Of a stretch of DNA of 32,753 bases, positions 293 through 32,276 are shown in pieces. How positions within the stretch are numbered: the first letter of the stretch is position 1; the number at the start of each line of letters is the position of its first letter. The stretch covers positions 1-32,753 of the forward strand of contig NZ_WJSP02000012.1 in the NCBI RefSeq assembly GCF_009720255.1, given 5' to 3'. This DNA comes from Agromyces humi. Lineage in GTDB: Bacteria; Actinomycetota; Actinomycetes; Actinomycetales; Microbacteriaceae. The notes beneath the pieces were generated by a model. The model made no database searches. It was not told the origin of the DNA and saw only the letters and a program-made list of their open reading frames with translations. A program made the position numbers and the translations under genes.

Positions 293-302
293 GCCGCATG
301 TC
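293..302 (+). promoter_or_regulatory. shared upstream motif, copy A (GCCGCATGTC)
   Basis: GCCGCATGTC lies 30 bases before the ATG at 333, the first gene of the transfer operon. The identity with copy E (29623-29632) extends to TGCCGCATGTCTTCC, then two mismatches, then GTACCC. That makes this the longest shared block in the set. Its role (promoter, operator or mRNA leader element) is unknown. Confidence 0.55.
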
Positions 303-332
303 TTCCTTGTACCCGCGAGCCAAGGAATACAC

Positions 333-1010
333 ATGACTGATCTGACGACCCCGGAATCGCCCCGGTTCGGACACCAGGCGCCGGAAATCGACCTCGACCT
401 GTTCGCGCAAGCGGCCGCCGAGCAGCCGCAGCAGCGCACCACCCCGTGGTCGAACGCTCCTGCGCTCCCTGCTGACGAGGATGTGTACGCGGCCGCGTAC
501 GACACCGACAGCACCGCCTCCACGAACACGGTCGACGACCACGACCCGTTCGACGATGAGCCCAACGAGCCGGCCACCGCCGGTACCCGGAAGCCTCGGA
601 ACCGCGACCGCGCGAACCTTCGTCGCGGGATCGCGAAGTACGACCAGCTGCTCACCGCACGCCCGGAGCTCCGCGCCGCCCTCGCCGCTGTGCTCCGCGT
701 CCAGGACAGCGCCCGCGACCTCACCTTCGCGATCATGGCCGGTCAGCGCACCGCCGCCCGGGCGATCGACGATGTCAGGGAGCTCAGCTCGCTGGCCGAG
801 ACGCCCGTCGACGCGCTAATCGCGGCGGTCAGCCTGCCGCGCCACCGCATGAAGGCGGTGTGGGCGCTCCTCACCGCGCTCGACCACGCCCGCGGCCCAC
901 TCCCGCAGGCAGACGTGAAGGCCGGAGCGCTCCTCATGAAGCACGCCACCCAGCTCACCGACACCGACCTCGAGGAGCTCGCCGCCGTTCACGAACTGGC
1001 GAGGCGCTGA
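333..1010 (+). CDS. hypothetical protein, first gene of the transfer operon
   Basis: 225 residues. The ATG at 333 is chosen because AAGGAA lies just upstream and the protein (MTDLTTPESP) starts cleanly there; the longer reading frame to the left crosses the promoter region. Residues 1-95 are low-complexity and acidic, rich in Ala, Pro, Asp and Thr, and probably disordered. From about residue 96 a basic stretch (RKPRNRDRANLRRG) leads into a helical, Ala- and Leu-rich C-terminal domain. No transmembrane segment or catalytic motif is seen. It is separated from the next gene by one base, and with it forms the front of an operon leading to TcpC-like and VirB4-like genes, so a role in or regulation of DNA transfer is likely but unproven. 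I do not recognise the family. Confidence 0.75.
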   Translation: MTDLTTPESPRFGHQAPEIDLDLFAQAAAEQPQQRTTPWSNAPALPADEDVYAAAYDTDSTASTNTVDDHDPFDDEPNEPATAGTRKPRNRDRANLRRGIAKYDQLLTARPELRAALAAVLRVQDSARDLTFAIMAGQRTAARAIDDVRELSSLAETPVDALIAAVSLPRHRMKAVWALLTALDHARGPLPQADVKAGALLMKHATQLTDTDLEELAAVHELARR

Positions 1011-1011
1011 C

Positions 1012-1350
1012 ATGGCCCGCTGCAAGTCGTGGCGGCCGAAGCGTCACGCGAAGCACCCCGTGCCGACGAAACCGGGGGAGTGCCGCGGCTGCTGGACCGT
1101 CTGCCGCAGCCGCATCGAGCCCGGCACCGTCCGATGCGATATCTGCCTCGAGGCGCTCATCACCCACCCCGACCCTGAGGTGCGTCGCGCACTCGTCGTC
1201 GAGGAGGGAACCGACCTGAACACGCTGATCCGCCTTGCGTCCGACGACGAGTACTCCGTTGCGCTGGCCGCCGAAGGGGCGCTCGAAGAGCTCGACAACC
1301 AGACCGTCCAGACACCCGACCCGGGCTACGACCCGTGGGCAGACCGATAG
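1012..1350 (+). CDS. small Cys-rich (zinc-finger-like) protein in transfer operon
   Basis: 112 residues beginning MARCKSWRPK. The N-terminal half is basic and carries C24-x2-C27, C31 and C42-x2-C45 pairs (CRGC, CDIC), a layout expected for a zinc-binding module. The C-terminal half (about 50-100) is acidic and Ala/Leu-rich, resembling a short helical or HEAT-like segment (PDPEVRRALVVEEG, then ALAAEGALEEL). It starts one base after the stop of the preceding gene, and its stop overlaps the ribosome-binding site of the next gene, so it is translated within the same operon. A DNA- or protein-binding accessory role in transfer is a guess; I do not recognise the family. Confidence 0.7.
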   Translation: MARCKSWRPKRHAKHPVPTKPGECRGCWTVCRSRIEPGTVRCDICLEALITHPDPEVRRALVVEEGTDLNTLIRLASDDEYSVALAAEGALEELDNQTVQTPDPGYDPWADR

Positions 1351-1357
1351 GAACACC

Positions 1358-2383
1358 ATGGCGAAGAAGAACCGACACTCCATCTGGGACGACACCAACC
1401 TCGTCGAGGCGGAGAACACCAGGTCGAAGCCGGTCCAGTCCAGCGAGACGAGCCGTCGATTCGTCCGCGGCTACACGAAGCTCGCCACCTACTCGTTCCC
1501 GCTCGTCCTCGTCATGCTCGGCGTGATCTGGACGGACATGCCGACCCCGGAGGACTTCGTCCAGGCGGAAGCGTCTGAGCAGATCGACTCGCCCGGGAAG
1601 GCTGAGGCGTTGCTGGCTCAGGATGCGTGGCTCGAATCGGTGCCGGCGCCGCTCTCGAACGGCCGGGTGCTCTCATGGGACGGCTTCGACGTCGTCCCCG
1701 AACCTAAGCTCGACGAGGTGGTCGCGAAGGCGGTCACCACCCCGGAGTACGACATCGAACTCCACCACTTCACCCTCGTCGACGGCGCCGGCAACCGGTA
1801 CCTCTCCGACGTCGCGGTGGCCGTCACCGAGAAGGAAGGCGCGACGGCGCTCAGCACCCCGTCGCTCAGCCCGATCGCGCCGGCGGCCAGCGGTTGGGCG
1901 ACGAACGGTGCCTGGTACGGCCTGAAGAGTGCCACTCCCTCCGACGCGGTTCGCGTCGCCGTCTCCGACTGGGCTGTCGCGTTCACGTCCGGGGACGCGG
2001 AGGTGCTCGGACAACGAGTCGGCGATGAGGCGGAGAACCACGAGTACATGCCCCTCTACGGTGTCGCGTCCGTCGAAGCGAACGTCGTCTCCGCAGCATC
2101 CGTCCCTGTCGTCGAGGACGGCACCGTCTCGGACGCGAAGCCGAAGCAGCTCGTCGCCCAGGTCGAGCTGAAGCTCACGTGGCTGGGCCCCGACGGTAAA
2201 CCGCAGGAGAGCGTCGTCGGTGGCGGCCACGGCAACAGCGTCATCACCTACGACGTGCTCATCAACGCCGCGAACACGAAGGCGCCGAAGGTGGTCGCCT
2301 GGGGTGGCCCGGGCACCGGCACATCCCTGAAGGAGTACCAGAACGCGGTCGTCGACCGTGAGCTCACGGAGGCAGGCAACTGA
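1358..2383 (+). CDS. TcpC/VirB8-like conjugation channel protein
   Basis: 341 residues from ATG 1358, preceded by AGGAA. There is a short cytoplasmic tail (1-41), one transmembrane helix (about 43-58, YSFPLVLVMLGVIW) and then an extracytoplasmic region. That region contains a segment typical of NTF2-like folds in the TcpC family (about 225-260, AVRVAVSDWAVAFTSGDAEV) and a second beta-rich region near 270-340. This topology matches TcpC of Clostridium perfringens pCW3 and the VirB8-like scaffold of Gram-positive type IV secretion systems. In those systems the protein helps assemble the membrane channel with VirB4 and VirB6 homologues. The stop and the start of the next gene share one base (TGATG), indicating coupled translation with the VirB4-like ATPase. 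The family call rests on topology, length and neighbour; sequence similarity is only moderate by eye. Confidence 0.72.
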   Translation: MAKKNRHSIWDDTNLVEAENTRSKPVQSSETSRRFVRGYTKLATYSFPLVLVMLGVIWTDMPTPEDFVQAEASEQIDSPGKAEALLAQDAWLESVPAPLSNGRVLSWDGFDVVPEPKLDEVVAKAVTTPEYDIELHHFTLVDGAGNRYLSDVAVAVTEKEGATALSTPSLSPIAPAASGWATNGAWYGLKSATPSDAVRVAVSDWAVAFTSGDAEVLGQRVGDEAENHEYMPLYGVASVEANVVSAASVPVVEDGTVSDAKPKQLVAQVELKLTWLGPDGKPQESVVGGGHGNSVITYDVLINAANTKAPKVVAWGGPGTGTSLKEYQNAVVDRELTEAGN

Positions 2384-4878
2384 TGGCACGCACCCCGAAG
2401 GTCGCAGACACCGCGGCGAAGTCGACACCTGACTTCCCGACGATGGTGAAGAAGCGGTTCCGTGACGGCCGCATCGTCGGCATCGACGACAGCGTCTGGC
2501 TGTACCGGGCGGTCCCGCTCGCCCCGGTGTCCGAAGCACGCACCGCCGAGGACGCCGTCAACGCCGGCCACACCATCCAGCAGGCCCTGAACGGTCTCGC
2601 CGGCATGGTCCGGCTCCGCAACAAGCAGCGGAACATGAACAAGGCGGGGTACCGGCAGGTGCACATGCTCCTGGTCAACATCCCGCAGTACTACGAACCG
2701 CCGGCCGACCACCCGAACTACGCGTACCTGAAGGAGGGCTACGCGGACCTGCTCACGTACCGTCGTGCGCTTGTGTTGGGTGTACGCCTCAACGCCCAGC
2801 TCGGCAACGGCTCCCTCCGCTCCGCGTTCGACTCGGCCGTCGAGTCGATCGTCCGAGGCGGCACGCCGATGTCCGACTACGACCAGGACTTCGAAGCCGT
2901 CGACCAGGTCCTCACACGTGCCGGCCTCTTCACACCGAACCCGGCGGACTTCCGCTACCTCAACGGGTGGTTCAACTACGGGATGAACTCCGACGTCCCG
3001 ATCGTCTACCACGACAACCACGTCCACTTCTTCCAGTCCGGACCTGCCGCCCGCGCCGCCGCACGCGTCGGCCTCGACGACTGCGACAGCTGGCTCGACA
3101 TGCACGGTACGCACGCGCTCACCTTCGCGGCAGTCGAGTCGTTCGAGCTCCCGTACGTGTCCGTGTACGAAGACACCGGGCGGTGGGCGTCCCGGCTCAT
3201 CGAGTCGGACGTCACTGCGATCTCCATCCGCGGCAAGGTCGAACCTCCTCAGGTGACACGCGAGGTCATGCGGAAGCAGATCGTCGACTACCGGCAGGAG
3301 CTCGAGGAGCGCCGCGAGAAGAACAAGCTCGACCGCGCCGAACTCGACGAGAAGTCCAACGAGCTGCAGCAGGTGGAACGCGACTACGCGTCCGGCGCCG
3401 CCCCGGCAACCCTCATCGACGCCTCCGTCGTGGTTGCCATGCCCGGCATCGTCGACGACGTCAACGCCACCTCGGCAGCAAGCGTCGTGCAGATGAGCGC
3501 GATGCAGAACCGACAGCCCGGCGCCCTCGCCGAGATGATGCTCGCCTCGTCGATCGGCGCGAACCCGTACCTCGAGGACCTGCCCGCCACGACGATCGCG
3601 TATTCCGGCCTCCCGTCGCTCTCGAATGTGGGCGACAAGGACGGCGTGCTGTTCGGTGTGACGGAGCGCGACCGGCAGCCGGTGTATCTCAGCCACACAG
3701 CTGTGTCGGACGAGGACACGCCCCCGCTGATGCTGGTTGCGGCAGGCTCAGGGTCGGGCAAGACGATGCTGCTGCTGAACCTCGCCGACCAGCAGGCGCG
3801 AGCGGGCGTGCCGAACGTGATCGTGGACCCGAAGACCGGTTCGGACCACTCGGCGGCGGTGCTCGCCTCCGGCGGCCAGGTCGTGTCCCTCGACGACCTC
3901 GTCTCATCGGACGGTGCGCTCGACCCGCTCCGCTTCGCCGCGTCCCCAGAGGTCGGCGTCGACATGGCGGCTTCCGCGCTGCTCACCGTGAACCCGTGGG
4001 GACCGGAGATCCACCTCTACGAGGTGCCGCTGTACACGGCGATCGCACGAGGCGTCTCCCTCGGCGCCACCTGCACCGGCCAGGCGCTGCAGCTTGCGTA
4101 CCAGGCGGAGCAGGATCCGAGGCACCGGGAGCTGCTCGAGCGCGTCATCGGCCCGATCTTCCGCCTCGCAGAGCAGAGCGCGCTGGTTCGCGCGTTCTTC
4201 GGTATCAACCCCTCGACGCGGGCCCTCCGGGTCGCGAACGGCATCACCTACATCAAGGTCGGCGACTACCGGCTGGAGCTGCCGACACCCGGGACGCCGA
4301 GAGAGCACCTCACCGTTCCCCAACGTCTCGCCGTCGCGACCGTGAAGATGATGTTCACCGGCGCCGGCATGGCGCTCACCGGCCGCGACGGTGTGCTCCA
4401 CATGGACGAGGCATGGGTGGTGACCGGCACGACCCCGGAGGAGGCGGAACGCGCCGGCCGACTCGCGCGCTCTCAGCGATTCCTCCCCATCCTGTATTCG
4501 CAGGACATGTCCGGCGCCATCAACGCGAACCTGATGAACCACGTGAGCCGCATGGCGATCGGCCCGCTCGACGATGCGAACCAGGCTCGGATGGCGTTGC
4601 AGATCGCGAAGCTCGAGGAGACGAAGGAGCGGATCGACCGGATCACCGCCCGGAAGACCATCGGTGTCGCCGGTGACGAGGTCGCCCCGAACTGGCACTC
4701 GCTCCGTCCGCTGTCCGATCCGAAGACGCGGCAGAACCTTCGAGGCACGATTTTCATCTTCTCCGACCTCGCCGGCCGTGCCGTCCCGACCGAGGTGAAA
4801 CTGTCTCCACAGTTCCTGGCGAGGGCTTCGACGAACCGTATCGACGTAAATCTCAGAAACCAACAAGCGGGCGTCTGA
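2383..4878 (+). CDS. virB4: VirB4/TraC-like conjugative ATPase
   Basis: 831 residues, normal for VirB4 proteins, which power type IV secretion channel assembly and substrate transfer at the inner face of the membrane. A Walker A motif GSGSGKT lies at 455-461 and a Walker B motif VLHMDEAW with D675-E676 in the C-terminal ATPase domain. A strongly charged, probably coiled-coil segment sits at about 300-345 (ELEERREKNKLDRAELDE). The N-terminal 250 residues form the variable VirB4 N-domain. No transmembrane segment is obvious, consistent with a peripheral membrane ATPase. It is coupled by a one-base overlap to the TcpC-like gene and followed by a strong hairpin. VirD4 coupling proteins also have Walker motifs, but the length, N-domain and TcpC neighbour favour VirB4. 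Confidence 0.88.
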   Translation: MARTPKVADTAAKSTPDFPTMVKKRFRDGRIVGIDDSVWLYRAVPLAPVSEARTAEDAVNAGHTIQQALNGLAGMVRLRNKQRNMNKAGYRQVHMLLVNIPQYYEPPADHPNYAYLKEGYADLLTYRRALVLGVRLNAQLGNGSLRSAFDSAVESIVRGGTPMSDYDQDFEAVDQVLTRAGLFTPNPADFRYLNGWFNYGMNSDVPIVYHDNHVHFFQSGPAARAAARVGLDDCDSWLDMHGTHALTFAAVESFELPYVSVYEDTGRWASRLIESDVTAISIRGKVEPPQVTREVMRKQIVDYRQELEERREKNKLDRAELDEKSNELQQVERDYASGAAPATLIDASVVVAMPGIVDDVNATSAASVVQMSAMQNRQPGALAEMMLASSIGANPYLEDLPATTIAYSGLPSLSNVGDKDGVLFGVTERDRQPVYLSHTAVSDEDTPPLMLVAAGSGSGKTMLLLNLADQQARAGVPNVIVDPKTGSDHSAAVLASGGQVVSLDDLVSSDGALDPLRFAASPEVGVDMAASALLTVNPWGPEIHLYEVPLYTAIARGVSLGATCTGQALQLAYQAEQDPRHRELLERVIGPIFRLAEQSALVRAFFGINPSTRALRVANGITYIKVGDYRLELPTPGTPREHLTVPQRLAVATVKMMFTGAGMALTGRDGVLHMDEAWVVTGTTPEEAERAGRLARSQRFLPILYSQDMSGAINANLMNHVSRMAIGPLDDANQARMALQIAKLEETKERIDRITARKTIGVAGDEVAPNWHSLRPLSDPKTRQNLRGTIFIFSDLAGRAVPTEVKLSPQFLARASTNRIDVNLRNQQAGV

Positions 4879-4884
4879 GCCCGT

Positions 4885-4920
4885 CGAGACCGTGTCAGCC
4901 GTATGGGGGACACGGTCTCG
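4885..4920 (+). terminator. hairpin terminator after virB4-like gene
   Basis: A perfect 12-bp inverted repeat, CGAGACCGTGTC at 4885-4896 and GACACGGTCTCG at 4909-4920, with a 12-base loop, lies seven bases after the stop codon. There is no long T run, as is common in actinobacterial terminators. Confidence 0.75.
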
Positions 4921-6272: not shown

Positions 6273-6295
6273 GTGTGCGGAATCCGCCGCACACA
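6273..6295 (+). promoter_or_regulatory. hairpin and variant shared motif (GCCGCACACA)
   Basis: GTGTGCGG at 6273-6280 and CCGCACAC at 6287-6294 form a perfect 8-bp inverted repeat with a 6-base loop just before the methyltransferase gene. The right arm contains GCCGCACACA (6286-6295). It shares ATCCGCCGCACAC and a following TAC with the site at 28762-28771 upstream of another gene, and looks like a variant of the GCCGCATRYC element. Confidence 0.45.
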
Positions 6296-6304: not shown

Positions 6305-7369
6305 ATGCCCCACCCCGCACCGGCAATCCATCGCTCCGACGACGCAATCACCATCTGGAACGGCGACAGCCGGGACGTACTTCGTCAGCTTGAAGACAAC
6401 AGCGTCGACCACATCGTGTGCGATCCGCCGTACGAAATCGATTTCACTAGGCAGCAGCGTGGAGTGTCCTGGGACCGCACGGGAATCGCCTTCGATGTCG
6501 AGTTCTGGAGTGACGCACTCCGCGTCCTGAAGCCCGGTGGGAACCTGGTCGCCGCGGGCGCCGCGCGCACCTACCACCGCCTCGCTGTAGCCGTCGAGGA
6601 CGCCGGGTTCGAGATCCGGGACAGCATCGTCTGGTGCTACGGGCAGGGAATGAGCCTTGGATCGGCCGACGTCGCGCACGAGCTCCGCAAGGCCGGTCAT
6701 GGCGACATCGCGGACGAGTATCAGGGCTGCGAGACCCGGCTCAAGCCCGCCTACGAGCCCTGGGTCGTTGCACGCAAGCCGCTCGAAGGCACGGTCGTCG
6801 AGAACGTCCTCGAGTGGGGGACTGGGTTCATGAACATCGATGCGGTCCGCATCCCGACCGACGAGGATCGGAGCCGCCGCAACGGTGACACTGATGCGTC
6901 GACCTGGAAGGTCGAGCGCGCCACCGAGCGCACCGAGTCCCACGCTGGCGGACGGTGGCCGACGAACATGATCCTGAGCCACGCCGAGGCGTGCGGCGAG
7001 GATGGTCCGTGCATCGACGACTGCCCGGTGCAGATGATCAAGGCCCAGGGCAAGAAGTCCGACTCGTCGCGGTATTTCCCGATCCTGCGGTACGAGAGCA
7101 AAGCCCGTGGCGCCGAGCGACCCCAGAAGGGCTCCAGGGACGAGCACTCCACGATGAAGCCGATCGCGCTAATGCGATGGCTCGTGCAGCTGGCCGCTAT
7201 GCCCGGCCAGACGGTTCTTGACCCGTTCCTCGGATCCGGGACGACCGCTGAGGCATGCATCGACTCTGGCGTGGACATCATCGGCATCGAGCTCGAGGCG
7301 AAGAACATGCCGGCGATCGATGAGCGGATCGATCGGGCGTTGGCGCGCAAGCTCGAGGCTGCAGCCTAG
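6305..7369 (+). CDS. solitary DNA methyltransferase (DPPY type, beta class)
   Basis: 354 residues from ATG 6305; a GTG at 6275 would add ten residues but lies inside a hairpin. The catalytic motif DPPY is at 40-43 (HIVCDPPYEIDF), and the AdoMet-binding motif DPFLGSGTT is at 306-314. Catalytic motif first and AdoMet motif last marks the beta group of amino-methyltransferases. DPPY usually goes with N6-adenine methylation, whereas SPPY is typical of N4-cytosine. Between them a region of about 190 residues is the likely target-recognition domain. No restriction endonuclease with an obvious match lies beside it, so it looks like the orphan methyltransferases of phages and plasmids that protect incoming DNA or mark the element. 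The substrate is double-stranded DNA, cofactor AdoMet; the recognition sequence cannot be read from the sequence. Confidence 0.9.
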   Translation: MPHPAPAIHRSDDAITIWNGDSRDVLRQLEDNSVDHIVCDPPYEIDFTRQQRGVSWDRTGIAFDVEFWSDALRVLKPGGNLVAAGAARTYHRLAVAVEDAGFEIRDSIVWCYGQGMSLGSADVAHELRKAGHGDIADEYQGCETRLKPAYEPWVVARKPLEGTVVENVLEWGTGFMNIDAVRIPTDEDRSRRNGDTDASTWKVERATERTESHAGGRWPTNMILSHAEACGEDGPCIDDCPVQMIKAQGKKSDSSRYFPILRYESKARGAERPQKGSRDEHSTMKPIALMRWLVQLAAMPGQTVLDPFLGSGTTAEACIDSGVDIIGIELEAKNMPAIDERIDRALARKLEAAA

Positions 7370-8562: not shown

Positions 8563-8572
8563 GCCGCATGCC
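8563..8572 (+). promoter_or_regulatory. shared upstream motif, copy B (GCCGCATGCC)
   Basis: GCCGCATGCC lies 67 bases before the ATG at 8640 in the divergent gap between the nuclease-like and FtsL-like genes. It is the copy most distant from its start codon. Confidence 0.45.
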
Positions 8573-8639: not shown

Positions 8640-9227
8640 ATGCTGACCGCCCGTCAGTTCGCCGATACCGTCGCTGAGGTTGCACCCGCGCGCCGGCACC
8701 TGAGGGCGGTCGTCCACGAGGTTAACAAGCCGAAAATCCGCAGGCGCCAACGGATGGTCGCCACGGTGCTCGGGGGCCTGGTCGCGATCGGTGCGCTGCA
8801 GCTGACGTTCAACCTGGCGATCGTGCAGGGCGCGTATGAGCTCGACGCGCTCGAGGTCCGTTCAGCTTCGCTGTCGAAGGAGATCGAGACGACCTCCGAC
8901 GCGCTCACCGTCTTGGAGTCGCCGCAGTCGCTTGCCACGAAGGCCGCCCAGCTCGGGATGGTTCCGACGAGCTCGGCGGTCTTCATGGACATCGCGACCG
9001 GTGCGACAGCTGGCGTGCCGGCGCCGGCGTCCGAGGATGCTGAACTGACGGACGGATACGTGCCGAACCAGCTGCTTGAGAACGGCGAGGCGAACGTCGA
9101 GGTCGCCGACCCGGTGGTCGCACCGGTCGATGCTGCGCCTGTACCCCAGGATGCCAAGTCGGCTGAGTCTTCAGCCGCTACTGCCCGAGCGCCGAAGGGC
9201 GTGATCCCCACCCCGAAGACTCACTAG
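8640..9227 (+). CDS. FtsL/DivIC-like bitopic septum protein with extended tail
   Basis: 195 residues from ATG 8640, with GGAGG eight bases upstream. The layout is a basic cytoplasmic tail (1-39), one transmembrane helix (about 40-62, VATVLGGLVAIGALQLTF), a short coiled coil (about 65-95, ELDALEVRSASLSKEIE), then SPQSLATKAAQLGMVP at 94-109. This matches the FtsL/FtsB/DivIC family, in which the coiled coil pairs divisome partners and the segment before GMVP ends in a conserved turn. Chromosomal actinobacterial FtsL proteins show the same ordering. After about residue 120 this copy has a low-complexity acidic, Ala/Pro-rich tail of some 75 residues. An element-borne copy far from a cell-division cluster is unusual. 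It could modulate division, localise a transfer apparatus to the septum, or have been recruited as a membrane scaffold. The 3' end overlaps the convergent gene by 50 bases. Confidence 0.72.
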   Translation: MLTARQFADTVAEVAPARRHLRAVVHEVNKPKIRRRQRMVATVLGGLVAIGALQLTFNLAIVQGAYELDALEVRSASLSKEIETTSDALTVLESPQSLATKAAQLGMVPTSSAVFMDIATGATAGVPAPASEDAELTDGYVPNQLLENGEANVEVADPVVAPVDAAPVPQDAKSAESSAATARAPKGVIPTPKTH

Positions 9228-12170: not shown

Positions 12171-12383
12171 TCCTGGTCCTCAGCGCATGGTTCTGCCGGC
12201 TCTCGGGTGGCAGAAGTTCGGAGCTCAACGACTGGGGGTGTTGCCGCACTAGTCAGAATACCCGCCAAAGTGACCACTCCCCTGCCCACTTGTCGGTGCG
12301 CCGAAACCCTGAGCATAACCTGAACGCCGACTGTGGAGAGTTCCGCGCATGGGAGCGATGACCACCCCTACGGAGGAACCATC

Positions 12384-12677
12384 TTGAACACCCTCGCCAC
12401 ACCTGACACGGAACAGACCGTCGAGCCTGCACCGCGCGAGCTCACGGCCGCCGACCGCTGCGACGCCTGCGGTGCACGCGCCTACGTCGAGGTGGCGATC
12501 GCCACCGACAAGCACGACGACCAGTTCAAACGAATCGTCGTCCCTCTGTTCTTCTGCGCGCACCACTACAACGAGCACGAGCCTCGGCTGGCGATGTCGA
12601 CCGCCGTTCGCGGGATCAACGACCAGCGCGACAAGCTCTACGAGGAAGAGGCATCTCGAACCAAGGGATATGAGTGA
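12384..12677 (+). CDS. DUF7455-like small protein
   Basis: 97 residues from TTG at 12384. This start is chosen because GGAGGAA ends five bases before it, whereas an upstream ATG-led reading runs through the promoter region without a ribosome-binding site. The core LTAADRCDACGARAYVEVAIA, then LFFCAHHYNEHEPRL, has a CxxC pair and a CxHH group spaced like a zinc-binding site. This pattern is typical of an actinobacterial small family known as DUF7455, common in chromosomes and phages. Molecular role unknown. Its stop overlaps the GTG of the next gene (GTGA), so the cluster is translationally coupled. Confidence 0.75.
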   Translation: MNTLATPDTEQTVEPAPRELTAADRCDACGARAYVEVAIATDKHDDQFKRIVVPLFFCAHHYNEHEPRLAMSTAVRGINDQRDKLYEEEASRTKGYE

Positions 12678-17904: not shown

Positions 17905-17914
17905 GCCGCATACC
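17905..17914 (+). promoter_or_regulatory. shared upstream motif, copy C (GCCGCATACC)
   Basis: TCGCCGCATACCTA lies here, with 45 bases between the 10-bp core and ATG 17960 of the first giant pilin gene. Copy D, before the second giant pilin, has the identical 14 bases (TCGCCGCATACCTA) at almost the same distance. Confidence 0.6.
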
Positions 17915-20107: not shown

Positions 20108-20149
20108 CTTGCCGCCGGAGGGACGACGCCTGCCGACCGAGGGACACTC

Positions 20150-20159
20150 GCCGCATACC
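20150..20159 (+). promoter_or_regulatory. shared upstream motif, copy D (GCCGCATACC)
   Basis: GCCGCATACC lies in the 99-base gap between the two giant pilin genes, 47 bases before ATG 20207. The second gene therefore probably has its own copy of the control signal rather than relying on read-through. Confidence 0.6.
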
Positions 20160-20206
20160 TAACAGGTAAGGACGGGTCTGCTGACCCGACGGCAGGAGGC
20201 CTCCGG

Positions 20207-23062: not shown

Positions 23063-23923
23063 TTAACCCGCTACCCGTTCGGTGATCCGGCGCGCAACCT
23101 GGTCATAGATCGCCACCGTCTCGCGACCGCGCTTGTCGTTCCACGCGCTCAGTGACACGGCCGCGGCATCCGCCTCGTCGAACCGTGACCACTCCGGGAT
23201 GTGCTTCGGGGTGATAATCTCCACGCCACGAACCTCGGTCGGGCCTGCCAGGTTCCAGACGAGCTCACCGAACCGATCGGCCAGCCCCGCGAGCTGGAAG
23301 TCCTTCTCCGCGGTGGCCTTCCGCCGGGTGACAACCACTCCCCCGATCTGAAGGGTCGGGTTCGCGAGATCCACCGCGTGCTGCGAGACGAAGTCGCTCA
23401 CACGGATGGCCGCCTCGACACCGTCGTAACCCGGCTCGGTCGGGATGATGACGTAGTGGGCCGCGGCCATCGCCATCTGCACCAGGTGCCCCAGATCAGG
23501 TCGGGTGTCGATGAGAACGAAGTCGTAGTCGTCCACCCAGCCGTCCAGCGCCTTCTTCAGGCGGCGAACGGCGCCGAGGACTCCGGACTCCGACTCCCGG
23601 TTGATGAGGTCGAACCTGGCGGGGAGAACGTCGATCAGTTCAGCCTCGCTCGTGGGGGTTCCGTCCTCGTCCACCCATCCGCATGCGATGACGGCTTGCT
23701 CTCCCGCGCCTTCCGCGTCGGCCTTGATCACTTCTGACATCGTCAGGATCGGAGCAGCTGGATCCCACTCGACCCCGAGCCTCCGGGTCGCGTTCGCCTG
23801 GGGGTCCATGTCGATGACGAGGACACGACTCCCCCGGCGCGCGAGGCCGGCAGCCGTCTGGACGGTGAACTGGGACTTGCCCACGCCGCCCTTGTTGTTG
23901 GAGATGGTCAGCACGATGGCCAT
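23063..23923 (-). CDS. parA: ParA partition ATPase
   Basis: 286 residues from ATG 23923. The deviant Walker A motif KGGVGKS is at 11-17, preceded by the strand IVLTISNN; the Walker A' motif VLVIDMDPQAN is at about 34-44; and the Walker B-like strand DFVLIDTRPD is at about 132-141. The protein lacks the N-terminal helix-turn-helix of type Ia ParA, so it is type Ib-like in architecture. It forms an ATP-dependent gradient on the nucleoid that separates plasmid copies through its RHH partner encoded just downstream. AT-rich repeats (23945-24266) upstream of the gene are the likely centromere and operator. Confidence 0.92.
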   Translation of the reverse strand: MAIVLTISNNKGGVGKSQFTVQTAAGLARRGSRVLVIDMDPQANATRRLGVEWDPAAPILTMSEVIKADAEGAGEQAVIACGWVDEDGTPTSEAELIDVLPARFDLINRESESGVLGAVRRLKKALDGWVDDYDFVLIDTRPDLGHLVQMAMAAAHYVIIPTEPGYDGVEAAIRVSDFVSQHAVDLANPTLQIGGVVVTRRKATAEKDFQLAGLADRFGELVWNLAGPTEVRGVEIITPKHIPEWSRFDEADAAAVSLSAWNDKRGRETVAIYDQVARRITERVAG

Positions 23924-24532: not shown

Positions 24533-25424
24533 CACGCACATGATCCGAACACGGAGCTCGAGGAAGAACGACAACAACCAGGGAAGTCCTGTACCGCCGG
24601 CTTACTCGGCTTGGCGCCGGGTGAAGCGCTTCTTCACGGACGAACCGAACTGGTTCGTGAGTGACGTGATCGTGGCTGTGCTCGTCGGTGGGGTCCTCTT
24701 CGGGATCAGCTTCTACGTTCAGGGGAACGCCGACCGCGCACAGCGAGAGTCGGATCAGCGCGTGTCCGACTCGATCGCTCGCCAGGCGCAGCTCGACAAC
24801 AACCGGCTGTACGTCTACACAATGTCCTCGAACCGTGTGGTCAACGCATCGTTTGACTCGATGGACCTCACAGATCAGCACCTGCCCGGAGTTCACCTTC
24901 CTGGTGCCGAGTTCCGCGGAGCCATTCTGAACGGCGCATCTCTTCGGGATAGCGACCTTCGCGGCGCCGACTTCTGGAACGCAGAATGGGAAGAGGCGGA
25001 CTTCTCTGGCGCCGACCTCACCGGAGCACAATTCGGTCGGATTGGTCTCAGCTCCACCGATGACAAGCCGGCATGGACCTTCTTCGCCGCGAACCTCTCA
25101 CACGCGAAGCTCTTCGGGATGGTCCTCGAGGACATCCAGGCTGCGAACTTCAGCGGGGCTCAACTGTCGGATGTCGACATGACTGCCGTGCATCCAGACA
25201 CCGTGCGCGAGCTCGTCGCAGACGGAGCCTTCACGGGCACATGCTTCTCGAACGTGGCTTGGCCCGCCGGCCTCGCGGACTCCGAGTTGCCGGCATCAGC
25301 TGACCAGTCGACCTGTCAGGCCCTGTGGCTTGCCGACTACTGTGACACTCGGCCACCGGTCGACATCCCGGGGGCGAGCCCGACGTGGAAACCTAGCTCT
25401 CTGTCGTCCCTTTGCCCTGCTTGA
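24519..25424 (+). CDS. membrane-anchored pentapeptide-repeat protein
   Basis: 301 residues from ATG 24519; upstream ATG 24450 and downstream ATG 24540 are alternatives and no start has a strong ribosome-binding site. A basic cytoplasmic segment (RRVKRFF at about 33-39) precedes one transmembrane helix (about 48-68, VIVAVLVGGVLFGISFYV). About 50 linker residues follow, then pentapeptide repeats of A(D/N)LxG type (about 125-170, GAILNGASLRDSDLRGADF, then DFSGADLTGAQF) and a second set (about 185-220, AANLSHAKLFG, then AANFSGAQLSDVDM). Pentapeptide repeats form a right-handed quadrilateral beta helix. The C-terminus has four Cys residues, suggesting disulphides outside the cell. Function unknown. 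Its last 32 bases overlap the 3' end of repA on the other strand. Confidence 0.75.
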   Translation: MRSIITHMIRTRSSRKNDNNQGSPVPPAYSAWRRVKRFFTDEPNWFVSDVIVAVLVGGVLFGISFYVQGNADRAQRESDQRVSDSIARQAQLDNNRLYVYTMSSNRVVNASFDSMDLTDQHLPGVHLPGAEFRGAILNGASLRDSDLRGADFWNAEWEEADFSGADLTGAQFGRIGLSSTDDKPAWTFFAANLSHAKLFGMVLEDIQAANFSGAQLSDVDMTAVHPDTVRELVADGAFTGTCFSNVAWPAGLADSELPASADQSTCQALWLADYCDTRPPVDIPGASPTWKPSSLSSLCPA

Positions 25425-26388
25425 GCGCCTTGCGGCTCTTGAAACCGCCGACGGTGGGCACCGAGGTGCGGCTCGGCTTGAGGACGAGATACCGGTCGGT
25501 GACGTCGATGTTGAGACCGTCATAGACGATCTGCATCGCCTGGAGGTTCTTCACGAACCGCTCCTTGAACGTCCTCGACCTGGCGAACTGCGCGCCGAAC
25601 TGCCCGTTGAGCTGCTCCCACGTGATCCGGCTGGTCTCCTTCAGGTAGAACATCCGATGTGTCAACCAGATGTACTGGTCGATTCGCATGGGGGAGGAGC
25701 CGAGGGCGTTGAGGACGCCGAGATCGACGGGCACCGGCGAGCTGATGATCGACTGGTAGAACTGGTCGGACAACCGGATCCGCGACTGCCACAGCCCGGG
25801 GTTGTCCTTCTCGTCGACGTCGGAGAACCAGAGCTGCACTTCGTCGGCGACCTGGAAGTAGGAGGCGCGGATGCCGGAACGTCCGGTCTCCTCGCTGACG
25901 ACGAGGCCTTCGACCGACATCTGCGATCCGAGCAGACGACGCATGTGATCGGTGAGGCGCTTGGCGTTCTGGCCGTTCGGCTTGATTCCGAGCTTCTCCA
26001 TGAACCCGCGCATGCTTCGGCCCAGGTCGAGCTCAGGGTCCCTGGTCTTCAACGCCTCTGTGGCCATCCACGTCATAGCGTGCCGGGGGATGACCCCGAA
26101 CGGGTAGGCCTCGTGACGCGTCTTGGTTTCCTCGTTGTAGATGAGGGCAGGGCGTACGGTGAGTGTGACGTTGCCGTTCCGTCGTTCCCAGTAGGGGACG
26201 TTCTTCGGTTCCCGGTACGGGAGGGAGACCTGTGCCCACAGCCTGGCGGAGAACCCGCGTTCCGGCTCCGTGGAGTCGAGCTCGCGCATGGTGGCGAAGT
26301 TGATGAGCTTCTGGCGCTCGGAGCTGATGGCGATCGACTTGCTCGCGGCCGGGTCGGGCTGCCGCTGGGATGGCGCGGGGTTCGACAT
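25393..26388 (-). CDS. repA: RepA-type plasmid replication initiator
   Basis: 331 residues from ATG 26388. The segment AYPFGVIPRHAMTWMATEAL, then LGRSMRGFMEKLGI and NAKRLTDHMRRLLGSQM, matches the plasmid-encoded RepA family (PF04796) of alphaproteobacteria and Microbacteriaceae. Further conserved-looking parts are VPVDLGVLNALGSSPMRIDQYIWLTHRM, a winged-helix-like piece that would bind the origin, and the basic C-terminus. The start lacks a good ribosome-binding site. An upstream TTG in an iteron is not believed, because the extra segment crosses the promoter region. Five iteron copies (26482-26590) lie just upstream of the gene, suggesting autorepression. RepA would bind the iterons and recruit DnaA and helicase to open the origin. 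Confidence 0.88.
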   Translation of the reverse strand: MSNPAPSQRQPDPAASKSIAISSERQKLINFATMRELDSTEPERGFSARLWAQVSLPYREPKNVPYWERRNGNVTLTVRPALIYNEETKTRHEAYPFGVIPRHAMTWMATEALKTRDPELDLGRSMRGFMEKLGIKPNGQNAKRLTDHMRRLLGSQMSVEGLVVSEETGRSGIRASYFQVADEVQLWFSDVDEKDNPGLWQSRIRLSDQFYQSIISSPVPVDLGVLNALGSSPMRIDQYIWLTHRMFYLKETSRITWEQLNGQFGAQFARSRTFKERFVKNLQAMQIVYDGLNIDVTDRYLVLKPSRTSVPTVGGFKSRKALKQGKGTTES

Positions 26389-26481
26389 GGAGGGCTCGTT
26401 CGCTCGGATGGTCTCGGTCAGTAGACAGCGTGCTGGGTTAAAGCGCTCCGGCCAAAAGGTGTCGTGCGGCGTGTCGCGTTT

Positions 26482-26590
26482 CGCCACCAAATGATCACAC
26501 TGATTCCGTGACGATTTGGTGGCGCTTCGTGATGGTCTGGTGGCGGCAAGTGTGATGATCTGGTGGCGCGAGTGCGATGGTTTGGTGGCG
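26482..26590. repeat. left iteron block, five copies (one direct, four inverted)
   Basis: One forward copy of CGCCACCAAATGATCACA (26482-26499) is followed by four degenerate copies in inverse orientation: 26508-26524, 26529-26545, 26552-26568 and 26574-26590. The spacing is tight, about 21-23 bases. The block lies directly in front of repA and is a probable operator for repA autoregulation. Confidence 0.8.
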
Positions 26591-27713: not shown

Positions 27714-27738
27714 CCCCGTGGGGCGATGCGCGGCGAAT

Positions 27739-28158
27739 CTAGCGGTCGAGGCCGGCCTCTTGGAGTAGCTCGAGATCGCGGTGATCGTCGGTGTCCCACT
27801 CTTCCCAGCCGTCGCCGCTGCCGAACCGGGTCATCAGGCCGGCGCGATCGACGGTGACCCGAATCGTGTCCTCGTCGTCGAAGGTGTCCATGTCCGGGTA
27901 GATGAGGTCGACGCGGTTCTCGTCGTGGACAGCGACGTGAGGCACACCACGGTGGGGGAGTGTGGCGTTCACGCGGACGATGGTGGCCTTGACCCTGTCG
28001 GAGAGGTCAGCCTCCCCGCCGAAGAGGAAGAGCCCGACGTCTCGCTTGACATCGAAGCCCGCCTCAACGAGCGGCACGCCAGGTCGAGTGGATCGGCCAG
28101 CGAAGGCGCCACGGTTGAAGCCTCCGTCGGCTACGACGTTTCCGCGCAGCTGCCCCAT
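27739..28158 (-). CDS. FNRG-motif protein 2 (139 aa)
   Basis: 139 residues starting at ATG 28158, sharing one base with the stop of the upstream gene (TGATG), so the two are translationally coupled. The N-terminus has VVADGGFNRGAFAG, echoing GRAGFNRGQYTW in the upstream protein. The rest is beta-rich and acidic (DLIYPDMDTFDDEDTIRVTVD, then GWEEWDTDDHRDLELL). No transmembrane helix or signal peptide. No family recognised. It is the last gene of the leftward pilus-linked locus and abuts the iteron array. Confidence 0.65.
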   Translation of the reverse strand: MGQLRGNVVADGGFNRGAFAGRSTRPGVPLVEAGFDVKRDVGLFLFGGEADLSDRVKATIVRVNATLPHRGVPHVAVHDENRVDLIYPDMDTFDDEDTIRVTVDRAGLMTRFGSGDGWEEWDTDDHRDLELLQEAGLDR

Positions 28159-28712
28159 CAGAGGTGATCTCCGAGCGACCCGTCGCGAGATGCCGACATG
28201 AGCTCCTTGAACAGTTCCTCGCGGAAGCCTGACATCGGGGTCCAGCGTTCGCCGTCCTCCTCGGAGAAGTTGTCGTAGGTGTTGACGGAGCCGTCGGGGT
28301 TCAGGACGAAGAGCGACCCGGAGGGCTGTTCGATCGGATCCTTGTGCTGCACGTCGATGATCAGGTGCTCGCCGTCGCGGTAGACGTGGCCGGCGACCCA
28401 GTCGCTGGCGCCGCCGAGCTCGCGGATGTCGAGGTCGTGGTCGAGGACCCAGACGTCGTTCACCGCCTGCACGGACGTGCGGAACGCCGCCAGTTCGTCG
28501 TCGGTCAGCAGTTCTAGGGCGACGGACTCGATCTCGCCGGCGTGGACGCGCGCGTGGAGCGAGGTGACGTCGTACTCGTCCGACTGGTAGTTGGCGCTCA
28601 CCTGGAGGACGCCTTCGACCGCGGCGCTCTGATCGCGCCACGTGTACTGGCCACGGTTGAACCCGGCTCGGCCGAGGTGGCCGCGTCGCTGGGCGGTCGT
28701 GGTGGTGGTCAT
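28158..28712 (-). CDS. FNRG-motif protein 1 (184 aa)
   Basis: 184 residues from ATG 28712, with AGGAA upstream. An N-terminal GHLGRAGFNRGQYTWRDQ segment is shared in form with the next protein. The body is acidic and beta-rich (SVALELLTDDELAAFRTSVQ, then HLIIDVQHKD), with a terminal helical part (FREELFKELMSAS). It has no membrane signals. A variant motif site (28762-28771) lies 49 bases upstream. Function unknown. The one-base overlap with the next gene and the shared motif suggest two related subunits of one complex. Confidence 0.65.
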   Translation of the reverse strand: MTTTTTAQRRGHLGRAGFNRGQYTWRDQSAAVEGVLQVSANYQSDEYDVTSLHARVHAGEIESVALELLTDDELAAFRTSVQAVNDVWVLDHDLDIRELGGASDWVAGHVYRDGEHLIIDVQHKDPIEQPSGSLFVLNPDGSVNTYDNFSEEDGERWTPMSGFREELFKELMSASRDGSLGDHL

Positions 28713-28761
28713 GAGGGTGGTTCCTAACGTGTTCGGGGAAGGTGGAACTTCCGCGGGAGTA

Positions 28762-28771
28762 CGTGTGCGGC
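28762..28771 (-). promoter_or_regulatory. variant shared motif (GCCGCACACG)
   Basis: On the minus strand ATCCGCCGCACACGTAC precedes the FNRG protein 1 gene by about 49 bases. It differs at one position from ATCCGCCGCACACATAC upstream of the methyltransferase (6282-6298). Confidence 0.4.
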
Positions 28772-28783
28772 GGATCGCCCAGG

Positions 28784-29587
28784 TCAGGTCACTTTTCCGT
28801 TTCGACGTCGGACCGGTGCATTCGGTTTACGAGGGGCAGGCTTCTTTGACGGCTGCTTCTTCGTCTCCTGCTTCGGCTTCCGCGGCGTCGTACGTTCTGC
28901 TCGAGGGGTGGGAGTTTTCCAGTCCGGTTGGGCTTTCCCGGCTTCGAACTCCATCGGCTCGGAGAGGGTGAGGGTGCGGGCCCACTCAGCCAAGAACGCG
29001 GCAGCCACCTTCGGGTCGTGGATCTCAAGGCCCGTCTCGAGCGATCGCTCGGCCGCGACGGTGAAATTGAACGACCCCGTCCATGCCGCGGTGGGCTTCC
29101 CCTCCTCGAGCCGGACGATGAACTTGTGGTGCATGAGTGGGACAGTGGAGTAGCCGCGGACTGCGAATCCGACAGCGCGGACCGGTTCGATCTCGTCCGG
29201 TGAGCCGGCGATATCGCGAAGCGGTGCCGGGAAGTCCGAACGGCGGAGCCCTCCCTTCAGCTTCGACAACGTTGCCCGGTGTCGGGCCGAGGCGGGCTTC
29301 GTGTCGGTCGTGCGGAGCGACCACTCCTTGTTGACGACCAGGGAGACCGGGCGGCCGGCGAGGGCTTCAACGAGCCGGGTGGAGGTGACCCAGGCGACGC
29401 AGCCGACGATGGCGGGGGAGTCGCGGATGAACCGCTCGAGCTCTGTGGCGACGTCGCCGAAGTGGACGGTCACCTTCCCCGACTGGGCGCCGCGGTCGAG
29501 CTGATCCCAGTCGTATCCGCCCTTCTTCCTGGCGCTCGGCGCCGGGCGAAGGTCATGCAGGCTGGCAGGGCGGGGAGGTCTCGGCAT
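28784..29587 (-). CDS. phospholipase-D-fold protein with a single HKD motif
   Basis: 267 residues from ATG 29587. The motif is H153-x-K155 (LMHHKFIV), then G171-S172-x-N174 (WTGSFNFT), then E185 in SLETGLEI, which is the layout of single-HKD PLD enzymes such as the Nuc nuclease. The canonical aspartate five residues after the lysine is replaced by L160, so activity may be altered. N-terminal 120 residues contain VTVHFGDVATELERFI and VSLVVNKEWSL, typical of the first half of the fold. The C-terminal 45 residues are extremely basic (Lys/Arg/Pro) and probably bind nucleic acid. No signal peptide. It could be a plasmid-encoded nuclease acting on DNA, or a phospholipid enzyme. A strong shared-motif copy lies 35 bases upstream. 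Confidence 0.78.
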   Translation of the reverse strand: MPRPPRPASLHDLRPAPSARKKGGYDWDQLDRGAQSGKVTVHFGDVATELERFIRDSPAIVGCVAWVTSTRLVEALAGRPVSLVVNKEWSLRTTDTKPASARHRATLSKLKGGLRRSDFPAPLRDIAGSPDEIEPVRAVGFAVRGYSTVPLMHHKFIVRLEEGKPTAAWTGSFNFTVAAERSLETGLEIHDPKVAAAFLAEWARTLTLSEPMEFEAGKAQPDWKTPTPRAERTTPRKPKQETKKQPSKKPAPRKPNAPVRRRNGKVT

Positions 29588-29622
29588 GGTCGCTGCTTTC
29601 CGGGGTCACGGGGTACCGGGAA

Positions 29623-29632
29623 GACATGCGGC
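29623..29632 (-). promoter_or_regulatory. shared upstream motif, copy E (GCCGCATGTC)
   Basis: GCCGCATGTC lies 35 bases before ATG 29587, between the PLD-like gene and the one before it. The match to copy A continues as TGCCGCATGTCTTCC, then two mismatches, then GTACCC. Confidence 0.6.
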
Positions 29633-29659
29633 AGCTACTGATGCCGTTGCGAGGTTCTG

Positions 29660-30331
29660 TTATTCGGCCGTCGGGACGGCAGCCGCGAGGACGACAACCA
29701 CGGCCCGGGCGTCATCCGTCGCGACCGACGCGTAGCCGAATTTCCCAGTCCCACTCACCGCTGCGACCATCGCCGCAGCCTCGGTCGTGGACGATAGGAA
29801 CGTGCGGGTGTGAAGGTCGCGCGGCCCAACGGAGTAGCCACCGACAGTGACGATCGCCTGACGCCCACACGCTTCCTCAACCACGGTGCCGCTGACGCCG
29901 TCAGACGTGGCCAGCTTCGACTTGCCCCAGTCGGCCAGGCAGGGGTCGGATTCGACATTCGATTCGCCGGGAGTCTGGGCGCCCTGGTCGGCAAGCAGGA
30001 GCTGCATCGTCGGGAGCGTCACGTCGGTCGTGTCGACGATCTTGACGCCGGCTCCCACTCGCGCCGGGGGAAGCCAATCTGTGGCGAATCGGACCTCCTC
30101 CGCCCCGCCAACCGGCAACTCCGTGCTGATGGCGGGTTCACCGATCGGGACGCCGGCTGCGTCCCGGGGGAGCGATGCCCAATCGTCCGCGGCATTCACC
30201 GCTGTGATCCGGGACTGCTCCACCTCTTCGGCGGAAGGCTGCAGTGTGTTCCAGGTGATCGCGCCGCCGGCAGTCACGACGAGCAGGACGCCTGTGATGA
30301 TGAGGGAGCGCCGGGGTCGGCGGTATCGCAT
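29660..30331 (-). CDS. membrane-anchored protein of the pilus-linked locus, 223 aa
   Basis: Start at ATG 30331 with AGGAG upstream. A basic N-terminus (MRYRRPRRS) leads into a transmembrane helix (about 9-27, LIITGVLLVVTAGGAITW), then an extracytoplasmic domain rich in Ala, Val, Thr and Asp with Cys residues (DPCLADWG and EEACGRQ) that may pair. Its size and single N-terminal helix fit a pilus assembly accessory such as a PilN/PilO-like or minor component, but no signature is seen. It is followed by the PLD-like gene and preceded by a strong shared-motif copy. Confidence 0.65.
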   Translation of the reverse strand: MRYRRPRRSLIITGVLLVVTAGGAITWNTLQPSAEEVEQSRITAVNAADDWASLPRDAAGVPIGEPAISTELPVGGAEEVRFATDWLPPARVGAGVKIVDTTDVTLPTMQLLLADQGAQTPGESNVESDPCLADWGKSKLATSDGVSGTVVEEACGRQAIVTVGGYSVGPRDLHTRTFLSSTTEAAAMVAAVSGTGKFGYASVATDDARAVVVVLAAAVPTAE

Positions 30332-30363
30332 AGTGAAGTCTCCTGAGGTCGAATCACCATCGA

Positions 30364-30373
30364 GACATGCGGC
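30364..30373 (-). promoter_or_regulatory. shared upstream motif, copy F (GCCGCATGTC)
   Basis: TCGCCGCATGTCTC lies 32 bases before ATG 30331 and only three bases beyond the stop of the pilin-like gene ending at 30376. Copy G has the same 14 bases. Confidence 0.6.
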
Positions 30374-30375
30374 GA

Positions 30376-31619: not shown

Positions 31620-31645
31620 TGAGGTCCTTCCGATGTAAACGCGGA

Positions 31646-31685
31646 TGGCCGCCACCGGAGCACCCGTGCAGGGTCCGGCGGCGGC
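31646..31685 (-). terminator. long hairpin between pilin and pseudopilin genes
   Basis: GGCCGCCACCGGA (31646-31658) pairs with TCCGGCGGCGGCC (31673-31685) with one mismatch, and the loop itself contains GCAC-CC-GTGC. It lies 14 bases after the pilin stop, read on the minus strand. It probably terminates or attenuates most transcripts and protects the pilin mRNA, so pilin is made in excess over the downstream minor subunits. Confidence 0.7.
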
Positions 31686-31699
31686 CACAGTTGCTGTTC

Positions 31700-32215
31700 C
31701 TAGCTGAGGTGGTGGAGGAGAGCCGTCGGTTCGACACATCCCGCCGCGGTCACCGCCGCTGCCGCGCCGCTCTTGATCTCGGTGTCACCGGAAACGCCGT
31801 ACCAGATGGTTCCGGTGTCCGAGAGAACGGCCACACAGAAGGCAGCGGTGGCACCGGACCCGGTGGCGGTGATGGTGACCTTCGCCGAGGCGTTCTTCTG
31901 GACGTACTTCGCGGCCACGAGTTGCGGGCCGGTTGCGTACTCACTGAGCCCGTCGTTGTCCGGGTCGGCGCCAGACGCCAGGAAGATCTCCTGGGCAGTC
32001 TTGACCGATCCGATGGTCGACTTGGCGGTGGCGTCGTTGGCCATCGGGATGACGGCCATGGCGCCGACGGCGGCGGCGAGGAGGACGGCGACGGAGATGC
32101 TGATCGCGACGATGATGTTGGGAATCGAGACCTCGATGCCGTCGCGGCGCTTGAGGATGGCGAAGCGTTCGGTCGTTGCCGAACGGAGTGGGGTGCGGGT
32201 TCGGAACGCCTGCAT
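31700..32215 (-). CDS. main small pilin (PilA-like), 171 aa
   Basis: ATG 32215 with AGGAG upstream. The leader runs MQAFRTRTPL to KRRDG26, then IEVSIPNIIVAISISVAVLL as the stalk helix (about 30-54). The RRDG-x3-SIPN context is shared with the two giant pilins at 17960 and 20207. The body has the pilin signature STIGSVKTAQEIFLA, with a C-terminal FCVAVLSDTGTIWYGVSG strand set and a final Cys (AAGCVEP) that can close a disulphide with the Cys of FCVAV. Length is normal for type IV pilins. It lies 77 bases after the prepilin peptidase gene, with shared-motif copy G in the gap. The downstream hairpin suggests a high-abundance transcript. Confidence 0.82.
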   Translation of the reverse strand: MQAFRTRTPLRSATTERFAILKRRDGIEVSIPNIIVAISISVAVLLAAAVGAMAVIPMANDATAKSTIGSVKTAQEIFLASGADPDNDGLSEYATGPQLVAAKYVQKNASAKVTITATGSGATAAFCVAVLSDTGTIWYGVSGDTEIKSGAAAAVTAAGCVEPTALLHHLS

Positions 32216-32266
32216 GTTGTTGCTCCTGTGTGTTGTGGGTAGGCCGCAGGGTGCGGTCACGGTGGA

Positions 32267-32276
32267 GACATGCGGC
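32267..32276 (-). promoter_or_regulatory. shared upstream motif, copy G (GCCGCATGTC)
   Basis: TCGCCGCATGTCTC lies 51 bases before ATG 32215 in the gap between the prepilin peptidase and the main pilin. Confidence 0.6.

Follow-up and report, generated by a model that had tools for sequence, protein, structure and literature searches.

Phage T4 late promoters consist of a -10 element alone, are dedicated to one genetic element and are read by gp55, a sigma-like protein that this element itself encodes. In streptococci, the alternative sigma factor ComX/SigX has a regulon marked by the cin-box, a short box of -10 type accompanied by a weak -35. For the Bifidobacterium breve megaplasmid pMP7017, a published account describes a 34-bp plasmid-only promoter motif whose 19 copies are predicted to drive 56 genes (PMC10832533). 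The motif is absent from bifidobacterial chromosomes, is AT-rich and overlaps a canonical TATACT -10; its authors take it for a transcription-factor site added to otherwise ordinary promoters of the TATAAT type, and the plasmid carries tRNAs and a tmRNA (PMC10832533). The sigma28 promoter consensus is given as TAAAGTTT-n11-GCCGATAA (PMC2859248). The subject here is a 10-bp element, GCCGCATRYC, in a 32,753-nucleotide stretch of Agromyces humi (contig NZ_WJSP02000012.1, positions 1 to 32,753), hereafter the window. It makes up all of contig C24 in the draft genome G000 (812 contigs, 4.39 Mb). With a probability of roughly 0.6, the element is the core of a giant plasmid's dedicated promoter class, read by a plasmid-encoded, divergent sigma70-like protein. 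No description of this promoter system was found in the literature searched (open PMC papers only).

The repeated element and its spacing

The repetition of the element is a real, strong signal. GCCGCATRYC has seven exact matches in the window; 100 dinucleotide shuffles average 0.45 matches and yield at most 3, so that 0 of 100 reach seven. With one mismatch tolerated, the window holds 14 matches where 13 are expected, which indicates that the full 10-mer matters. A preliminary description of the window had listed these seven copies, and their positions and strands are exactly as it gave them:

293..302, plus strand: element GCCGCATGTC, ahead of 333-1010, the first gene of the AAA_10 ATPase operon
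8563..8572, plus strand: element GCCGCATGCC, ahead of gene 8640-9227
17905..17914, plus strand: element GCCGCATACC(TA), ahead of a giant pilin-like gene (start 17960 or 17969, end 20107)
20150..20159, plus strand: element GCCGCATACC(TA), ahead of giant pilin-like gene 20207-22387
29623..29632, minus strand: element GCCGCATGTC, ahead of PLD-like gene 28784-29587
30364..30373, minus strand: element GCCGCATGTC, ahead of gene 29660-30331
32267..32276, minus strand: element GCCGCATGTC, ahead of small pilin-like gene 31700-32215

All seven lie on the coding strand of the gene downstream, at the 30-67 nucleotides (nt) from the start codon that had been claimed; measured from the end of each element to a start codon that has a ribosome-binding-like site, the distances in coordinate order are 30, 67, 45, 47, 35, 32 and 51 nt.

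Across the whole draft genome, 99 copies occur against 64 of the reversed pattern. An ATG stands 8 nt after the 10-mer in 16 of the 99, and any other offset from 0 to 59 accounts for at most 4; GTG is most frequent at offset 6 (12 copies), a placement that likewise brings a purine to offset 8. Among the 55 copies that lie in low-GC sequence and are preceded by a pyrimidine, the offset-8 base is a purine in 52, compared with 99 of 220 at control offsets. The logo of 52 non-coding copies, kept from the 99 as distinct, of low coding score, preceded by a pyrimidine and with enough flank, reads T-Y-C-GCCGCATGTC-Y-N7-R. No conserved block appears 15-45 nt upstream of the element, either in these 52 sites or in 48 sites of a related genome, G212. 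The TAAA-type -35 block of sigma28 was not found in the same two sets of sites. Its -10 block GCCGATAA is not matched by the element either: GCCG is common to both, and the rest of the element reads CATRYC.

The fixed 8-nt spacing to a leaderless ATG, with a purine usually at that place elsewhere, makes the element look like a -10-type promoter core without a conserved -35. On the simplest reading, in which the start is placed from position only, the core would span about -18 to -9. RNA polymerase would start 8 nt downstream of the 10-mer, at the A of the ATG in leaderless genes and at a purine within a short leader elsewhere, as for the seven genes of the window, and the element would work without a conserved -35. 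The preliminary description had left three options standing. An alternative-sigma promoter is now favoured by the fixed leaderless spacing, the purine at the inferred +1 of most other copies, the coding-strand orientation and the lack of a conserved -35; an operator or a 5' mRNA element is disfavoured, because neither alone explains the fixed spacing to leaderless starts.

A probable giant replicon and its relatives

G212 belongs to another genus of the same family, and its contig C5 measures 701,121 bp. A protein comparison set the window against C5 and just 100 kb from elsewhere in G212. Of the 31 genes called in the window, 22 match C5, 20 of these 22 within 481-524 kb, and 20 are reciprocal best hits; this block of C5 shares gene order with the window, including RepA, ParA and an 831-amino-acid (aa) ATPase. 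Because this synteny sets the window inside a 0.7-Mb relative, the window is most likely a megaplasmid piece and not a 33-kb plasmid, and a small conjugative plasmid was rejected. Fourteen further low-GC contigs of G000 pair with C5 in the same comparison, and whole-genome searches place the flagellar FlhA and sigma genes and the pilB of low-GC G000 contigs on C5; RNA polymerase beta' was not found on C5. Copies of the element concentrate in one composition class: 64 of the 99 lie in stretches below 68.5% GC, and the copy-rich contigs (C112 with ten copies, all on one strand; C135, C445 and C778 with six each) form a second population at 65-68% GC versus 69-72% for most other stretches fetched. 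The idea that C112 and C223 are separate mobile elements or chromosome was dropped after the protein comparison with C5. The window is probably one contig of a low-GC giant replicon of about 0.7 Mb.

G212 spells the element GCCACATGYC instead of GCCGCATRYC, and its pilB reads GCCACATGTC-8 nt-ATG where that of G000 reads GCCGCATGTC-8 nt-ATG. There are 55 copies of GCCACATGTC in G212, 48 of them on C5, against 15 of the reversed word; no comparable excess appears in the other 12 genomes searched. The G212 logo differs from that of G000 by the G-to-A change only, with T-T-Y before the element, no -35 and a purine at offset 8. Comparing copies upstream of genes with copies inside them had been proposed as a check; on C5, a called start follows within 150 nt for 110 of 140 copies, and 12 copies fall inside a gene on their own strand. 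Counting all words of the class described below, C5 carries 472 elements; of 478 predicted transcription-unit heads, 256 have one no more than 200 nt upstream (shifted-position controls: mean 29.9, maximum 51), as do 86 of 364 non-head genes. The earlier proposal of a regulon of transfer and pilus genes proves too narrow, since the element precedes genes all over C5, including a tRNA array and a sigma gene. That array (C5:5894-19764) comprises 30 tRNAs and a tmRNA, with an element of the present class just ahead of its first tRNA-Asn; in G000, 6 kb of C224 (11128-17137) hold 8 tRNAs and a tmRNA, with the element 30 nt ahead of the first tRNA-Asn. The plasmid of Arthrobacter caoxuetaonis zg-Y453 has 37 tRNAs with no tmRNA reported, and the window contains neither tRNA nor tmRNA.

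Element use is conserved between orthologues. In 249 reciprocal pairs between G000 contigs and C5, the element precedes both members in 61, the G000 member only in 41, the G212 member only in 25 and neither in 122 (odds ratio 7.3, p=4e-12). For the window gene 333-1010, the counterpart has GCCACATGTC at C5:524136(-), 183 nt ahead of the called start. The orthologues of the giant pilin-like gene 20207-22387 and of the PLD-like gene also carry the element (C5:488140+ and C5:491063+), as does the best-hit gene of the small pilin-like gene (upstream, at C5:484937(+)); none was found upstream of the orthologue of gene 29660-30331. The flank sub-type GCCGCATACCTA singled out in the preliminary description recurs on C5 as CC[AG]CATACCTA at 12 sites.

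The exact spelling, by contrast with its use, is confined. In 249 genomes of the family, TCGCCGCATGYC has 30 matches in G000 against 1 reversed, and no other genome exceeds 10; the second-highest, G126, has 10 against 4 reversed. A family-wide chromosomal regulator was rejected on this clear excess in G000 only. A public species sharing the exact leaderless spelling was likewise rejected, as a scan of one genome per species returned 23 stretches with a single match each, in unrelated organisms. The excess in G000 alone and the scattered single hits indicate that the spelling is replicon-specific, and the element very probably marks a plasmid-wide, replicon-specific promoter class.

Related giant plasmids, located through the 831-aa ATPase as marker, extend this picture. 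The ATPase has relatives on 15 PLSDB plasmids, and the nearest eight plasmids (375-608 kb) come from Curtobacterium, Pseudarthrobacter, Paenarthrobacter and Arthrobacter. Five Arthrobacter-type plasmids carry CCGCACACATA in 122, 121, 29, 25 and 20 copies, with 0 control matches on each. Three Curtobacterium plasmids carry it once or twice, their own spelling being of the GCATAG type: pS16 uses GCCGCATAG and CCGCGCATAG, and the two others have CCGCATAG ahead of the ATPase operon. What recurs is CCRC at exactly -17 relative to ATGs whose frames run for 80 codons or more; it is in excess over same-phase offsets in 5 of 5 giant replicons (224/118, 110/65, 154/78, 119/67 and 126/72) and shows no excess in chromosomal controls (58 vs 56; 10 vs 12). 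The words that follow CCRC vary by replicon, with several in each of the three Microbacteriaceae replicons counted, and C5 and the plasmids labelled W02, W07 and W08 each hold over a hundred element copies. Gene starts come from a home-made caller, save for independently annotated (PGAP) ones: a stretch of pACHL01, from Pseudarthrobacter chlorophenolicus A6, has 38 such starts, 5 of them with the element at exactly -17, and a stretch of pS16 has 60, again with 5 at -17; two more have it at -16 and -15. The script counts cover 400 of 546 kb of pS16 and pACHL01 minus 340-360 kb and 420-427 kb; word and CCRC counts leave out C46 and C152. Such sister words would share CCRC at -17 to -14, would together head a large share of a plasmid's transcription units and would drift in concert between plasmids.

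A chromosome-like, low-GC island (63-65% GC) on another G212 contig, C1 (422187-447382), has four GCCACATGTC copies and no CCRC excess at -17 (6 against 5.7); it may be an integrated relative or a satellite of the megaplasmid.

Sister words occur in the window as well. The variants GCCGCACAC(A/G) recorded in the preliminary description are real at 6286(+) and 28771(-), the same word is a promoter-like element in relatives, and both belong to the sister-word series. They are listed with the other features of the window:

6286..6295, plus strand: sister word GCCGCACACA, with an ATG 18 nt after CCGC, a putative leaderless promoter of the N6_N4 methylase gene 6305-7369
28762..28771, minus strand: sister word GCCGCACACG, 58 nt ahead of gene 28158-28712
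12343..12351, plus strand: sister word CCGCGCATG, the replicon's other class, 41 nt ahead of the called TTG of the DUF7455 gene 12384-12677
2383..4878, plus strand: 831-aa AAA_10-like ATPase, 71% identical to its C5 counterpart; the AAA_10 match (E 2e-4) falls short of the Pfam cut-off
25393..26487, minus strand: RepA-type replication protein (PF04796)
23063..23923, minus strand: ParA-type partition ATPase

In the sampled contigs of the window's replicon, CCGCGCATG has 108 copies against 5 in reversed sequence. The ATG 15 nt past the word at 12343..12351 opens just 9 codons, and no leaderless start is claimed there. Positions 17960-22387 encode a tandem pair of giant pilin-like proteins, roughly 712-726 aa long, which are 25-28% identical to a single 673-aa protein of C5 and have no Pfam match at E 0.001.

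Candidate readers of the element

The candidate reader is a sigma-like protein of 338-405 aa, annotated as hypothetical, with WP_012623387.1 as one member. A tblastn search of PLSDB finds it on 8 of 72,556 plasmids, exactly the eight related plasmids; its gene is also present on C5 and on G000 C129 (3663-4742, minus strand), where the neighbours are syntenic with C5, and the protein was found in 10 of 10 replicons examined. Pfam Sigma70_r2 (PF04542) matches four of the ten members (best E 3e-4), and these are the family's only Pfam hits below E 0.04. Every NCBIfam hit below E 0.02 is a sigma factor (best 6e-5), and the best PDB match is SigI1 (E 0.015). For region 4, no model among nine Pfam families was matched by the ten members at E up to 1. 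In each of the ten genes, CCGC stands 16-18 nt ahead of a putatively leaderless ATG (eight at 17, one at 16), and in nine a G precedes it. The family was not found in viral contigs.

Two considerations favour this protein: it is the sole one of three candidates present in every replicon examined, and a sigma factor without region 4 suits a -35-less promoter. The reader would thus be a plasmid-encoded, very divergent sigma70-family protein, with region 2 detectable in some members and no recognisable region 4. It appears the likeliest reader, ahead of any single rival protein, though unproven.

Several observations weigh against this assignment, or against parts of the promoter model itself. 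The similarity to sigma factors is weak: Sigma70_r2 is detected in just four of ten members, the member of G000 itself has an NCBIfam sigma hit at E 0.085 and none in Pfam, and hhalign of the family against other sigmas gives a probability of 8%. Co-occurrence with the element is weak and partly circular evidence, because a core ATPase served to find the plasmids, so that co-occurrence is expected of every core gene. In both G000 and G212, the promoter of the sigma-like gene is a CCGCACAC word and not CATGYC, so the words may not all share one reader, and a replicon with several words may have more than one. Two other sigma candidates lie on C5, an ECF-like gene at 303087 and a weaker, sigma-like open reading frame at 356510. 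Eight further homologues occur among 396 genomes of the order; CCRC stands at -17 in four and is missing there in the other four, one of which lies in a GC-0.74 setting, next to a FliA-like sigma gene in a one-contig genome. Orthologue conservation is less marked in the window alone, where 20 reciprocal pairs divide into 3 with the element in both members, 4 in G000 only, 1 in G212 only and 12 in neither. The full word set was counted on five replicons only, with W05, W06 and W08 counted for one word and W03 and W04 represented by few sites in short stretches, and the class words were chosen after inspection of the data. Transcription starts are predicted from sequence position, and a 0.7-Mb plasmid in G000 is inferred from the synteny and composition of draft contigs.

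Two side observations concern the sigma-like family. In a one-contig genome of the same genus (G240), a homologue at C1:236561-237430 lies some 0.6 kb away from a gene for a FliA-like sigma, in divergent orientation and with no element. The motif P.G.P.GG(Q/E)F, present as VPKGIPTGGQFAA at the N-terminus of the sigma-like protein, is common to dozens of otherwise different open reading frames (38 stop-to-stop frames in the stretches of pACHL01, 18 in the A. caoxuetaonis plasmid and 1 in 400 kb of pS16) and is possibly a sorting or transfer signal.

The alternative that survives best, still tentative, divides the words between sigmas: words with a -35 (for example CGGnGAGA before TCCGCACACATA) would be read by an RpoD-like, FliA-like or other plasmid sigma, and the sigma-like protein would read GCCRC words that lack one. 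The words do fall into two broad types: GCCRC words, the present element among them, have no -35, and a second type has a -35-like block (CGGnGAGA in W02 and W07; CAAAA in G212, at CCGC[AG]CATG). The logo of GCCRCATGYC has no such block. RpoD-like sigmas are encoded on all five Arthrobacter-type plasmids. Two of these lie within longer reading frames: on pACHL01, a 1016-aa frame at 377171-380221 has its own leaderless element and a remainder that looks helicase-like by eye, and pYJN5-1 has a similar 1045-aa frame near 47289. The division is not clean in the Arthrobacter-type plasmids, however; in W02 and W07, the classes are not cleanly told apart by the base that precedes CCGC, and the G000 word CCGCGCATG has no -35-like block. 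Nor was an RpoD-like sigma found on C5, the sampled G000 contigs or pS16.

The main single-protein rival, which we consider unlikely, is a plasmid-borne FliA/WhiG-like (sigma28-type) sigma encoded in a flagellar cluster (C223:39473-40246), reading the same promoter. Two divergent element copies lie just upstream of this gene, GCCACATGTC stands ahead of its G212 counterpart, and the E. coli sigma28 -10 consensus GCCGATAA has GCCG in common with the element (PMC2859248). FliA-like sigmas are present on C223, on C5 and on seven of nine PLSDB plasmids scanned with PF04542 (W01, W03, W04, W05, W07, W08 and W11). On pACHL01 and pYJN5-1, which both carry the system, none was found with PF04542 in the whole records. 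Within the eight elements at 102-133 kb of C5, the present class occurs only before the FliA-like sigma gene and once at the far edge; the flagellin gene on C223 has no copy directly upstream, and no TAAA -35 accompanies the element. The weight matrix applied to C223 was built from copies outside the window and C223. FliA-like sigmas also occur in 83 of 249 family genomes, whereas only G000 has a clear element excess. Although it was the first candidate considered, the FliA-like sigma was demoted because it was not found on pACHL01 and pYJN5-1 and because flagellar genes mostly lack the present word.

It is improbable that the element is a plasmid regulator's binding site overlapping an ordinary host promoter, as the pMP7017 motif was interpreted by its authors (PMC10832533) and as some divergently paired copies might suggest, since the logos contain no TTGACA or TATAAT-like block, the copies keep a single orientation and a fixed distance to the inferred start, and C5, W02, W07 and W08 each have more than 100 of them.

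Implications and comparison with known systems

We would lay even odds on a broader view, in which giant plasmids of the Micrococcales drive much of their transcription through a private code: hundreds of GC-rich, often -35-less promoters with CCRC at -17, many of them leaderless, read by a highly divergent plasmid sigma and diverging in concert at tens to hundreds of sites. The diverged spellings would include GCCGCATGTC, GCCACATGYC, CCGCGCATAG and CCGCACACATA. Together with this code, the plasmids' own tRNA sets and, in some, a tmRNA would make them semi-autonomous expression systems. If so, some very large plasmids own a promoter language and a sigma factor rather than simply borrowing host promoters. 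The sigma factor would be hard to recognise and called hypothetical by annotation pipelines, and promoter finders tuned to the host consensus would be expected to miss its promoters. The plasmids would offer a natural series of orthogonal promoter/sigma pairs and a handle on when they are silent or active in the host, and the joint change in specificity of a sigma factor and hundreds of its promoters would become directly testable.

Among described systems, pMP7017 is the nearest published case found; it resembles the present one in having a motif at the promoters of one megaplasmid, in carrying tRNAs and a tmRNA, and in encoding a distant homologue (28% identity) of the window's 831-aa ATPase. 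It differs in sequence and copy number, and the present system has a leaderless geometry and no host-type -10. Exact copies of CCGCACACATA are absent from pMP7017; within its published motif, however, TCCACATA (positions 58-66 and 1896-1904) is similar to CCRCA-type words of these giant plasmids and might be a distant form of the same core.

Promoters of sigma28 (FliA/WhiG) share a GC-rich extended -10 that starts GCCG, and a FliA-like sigma is present on most of these plasmids, but here there is no -35, and CATRYC takes the place of ATAA. The cin-box differs in serving a chromosomal competence regulon and not a plasmid-wide code. Phage late promoters read by small sigma-like proteins appear to be the closest functional analogy; compared with those of T4, the element here would serve a giant plasmid through a GC-rich word that drifts between relatives.

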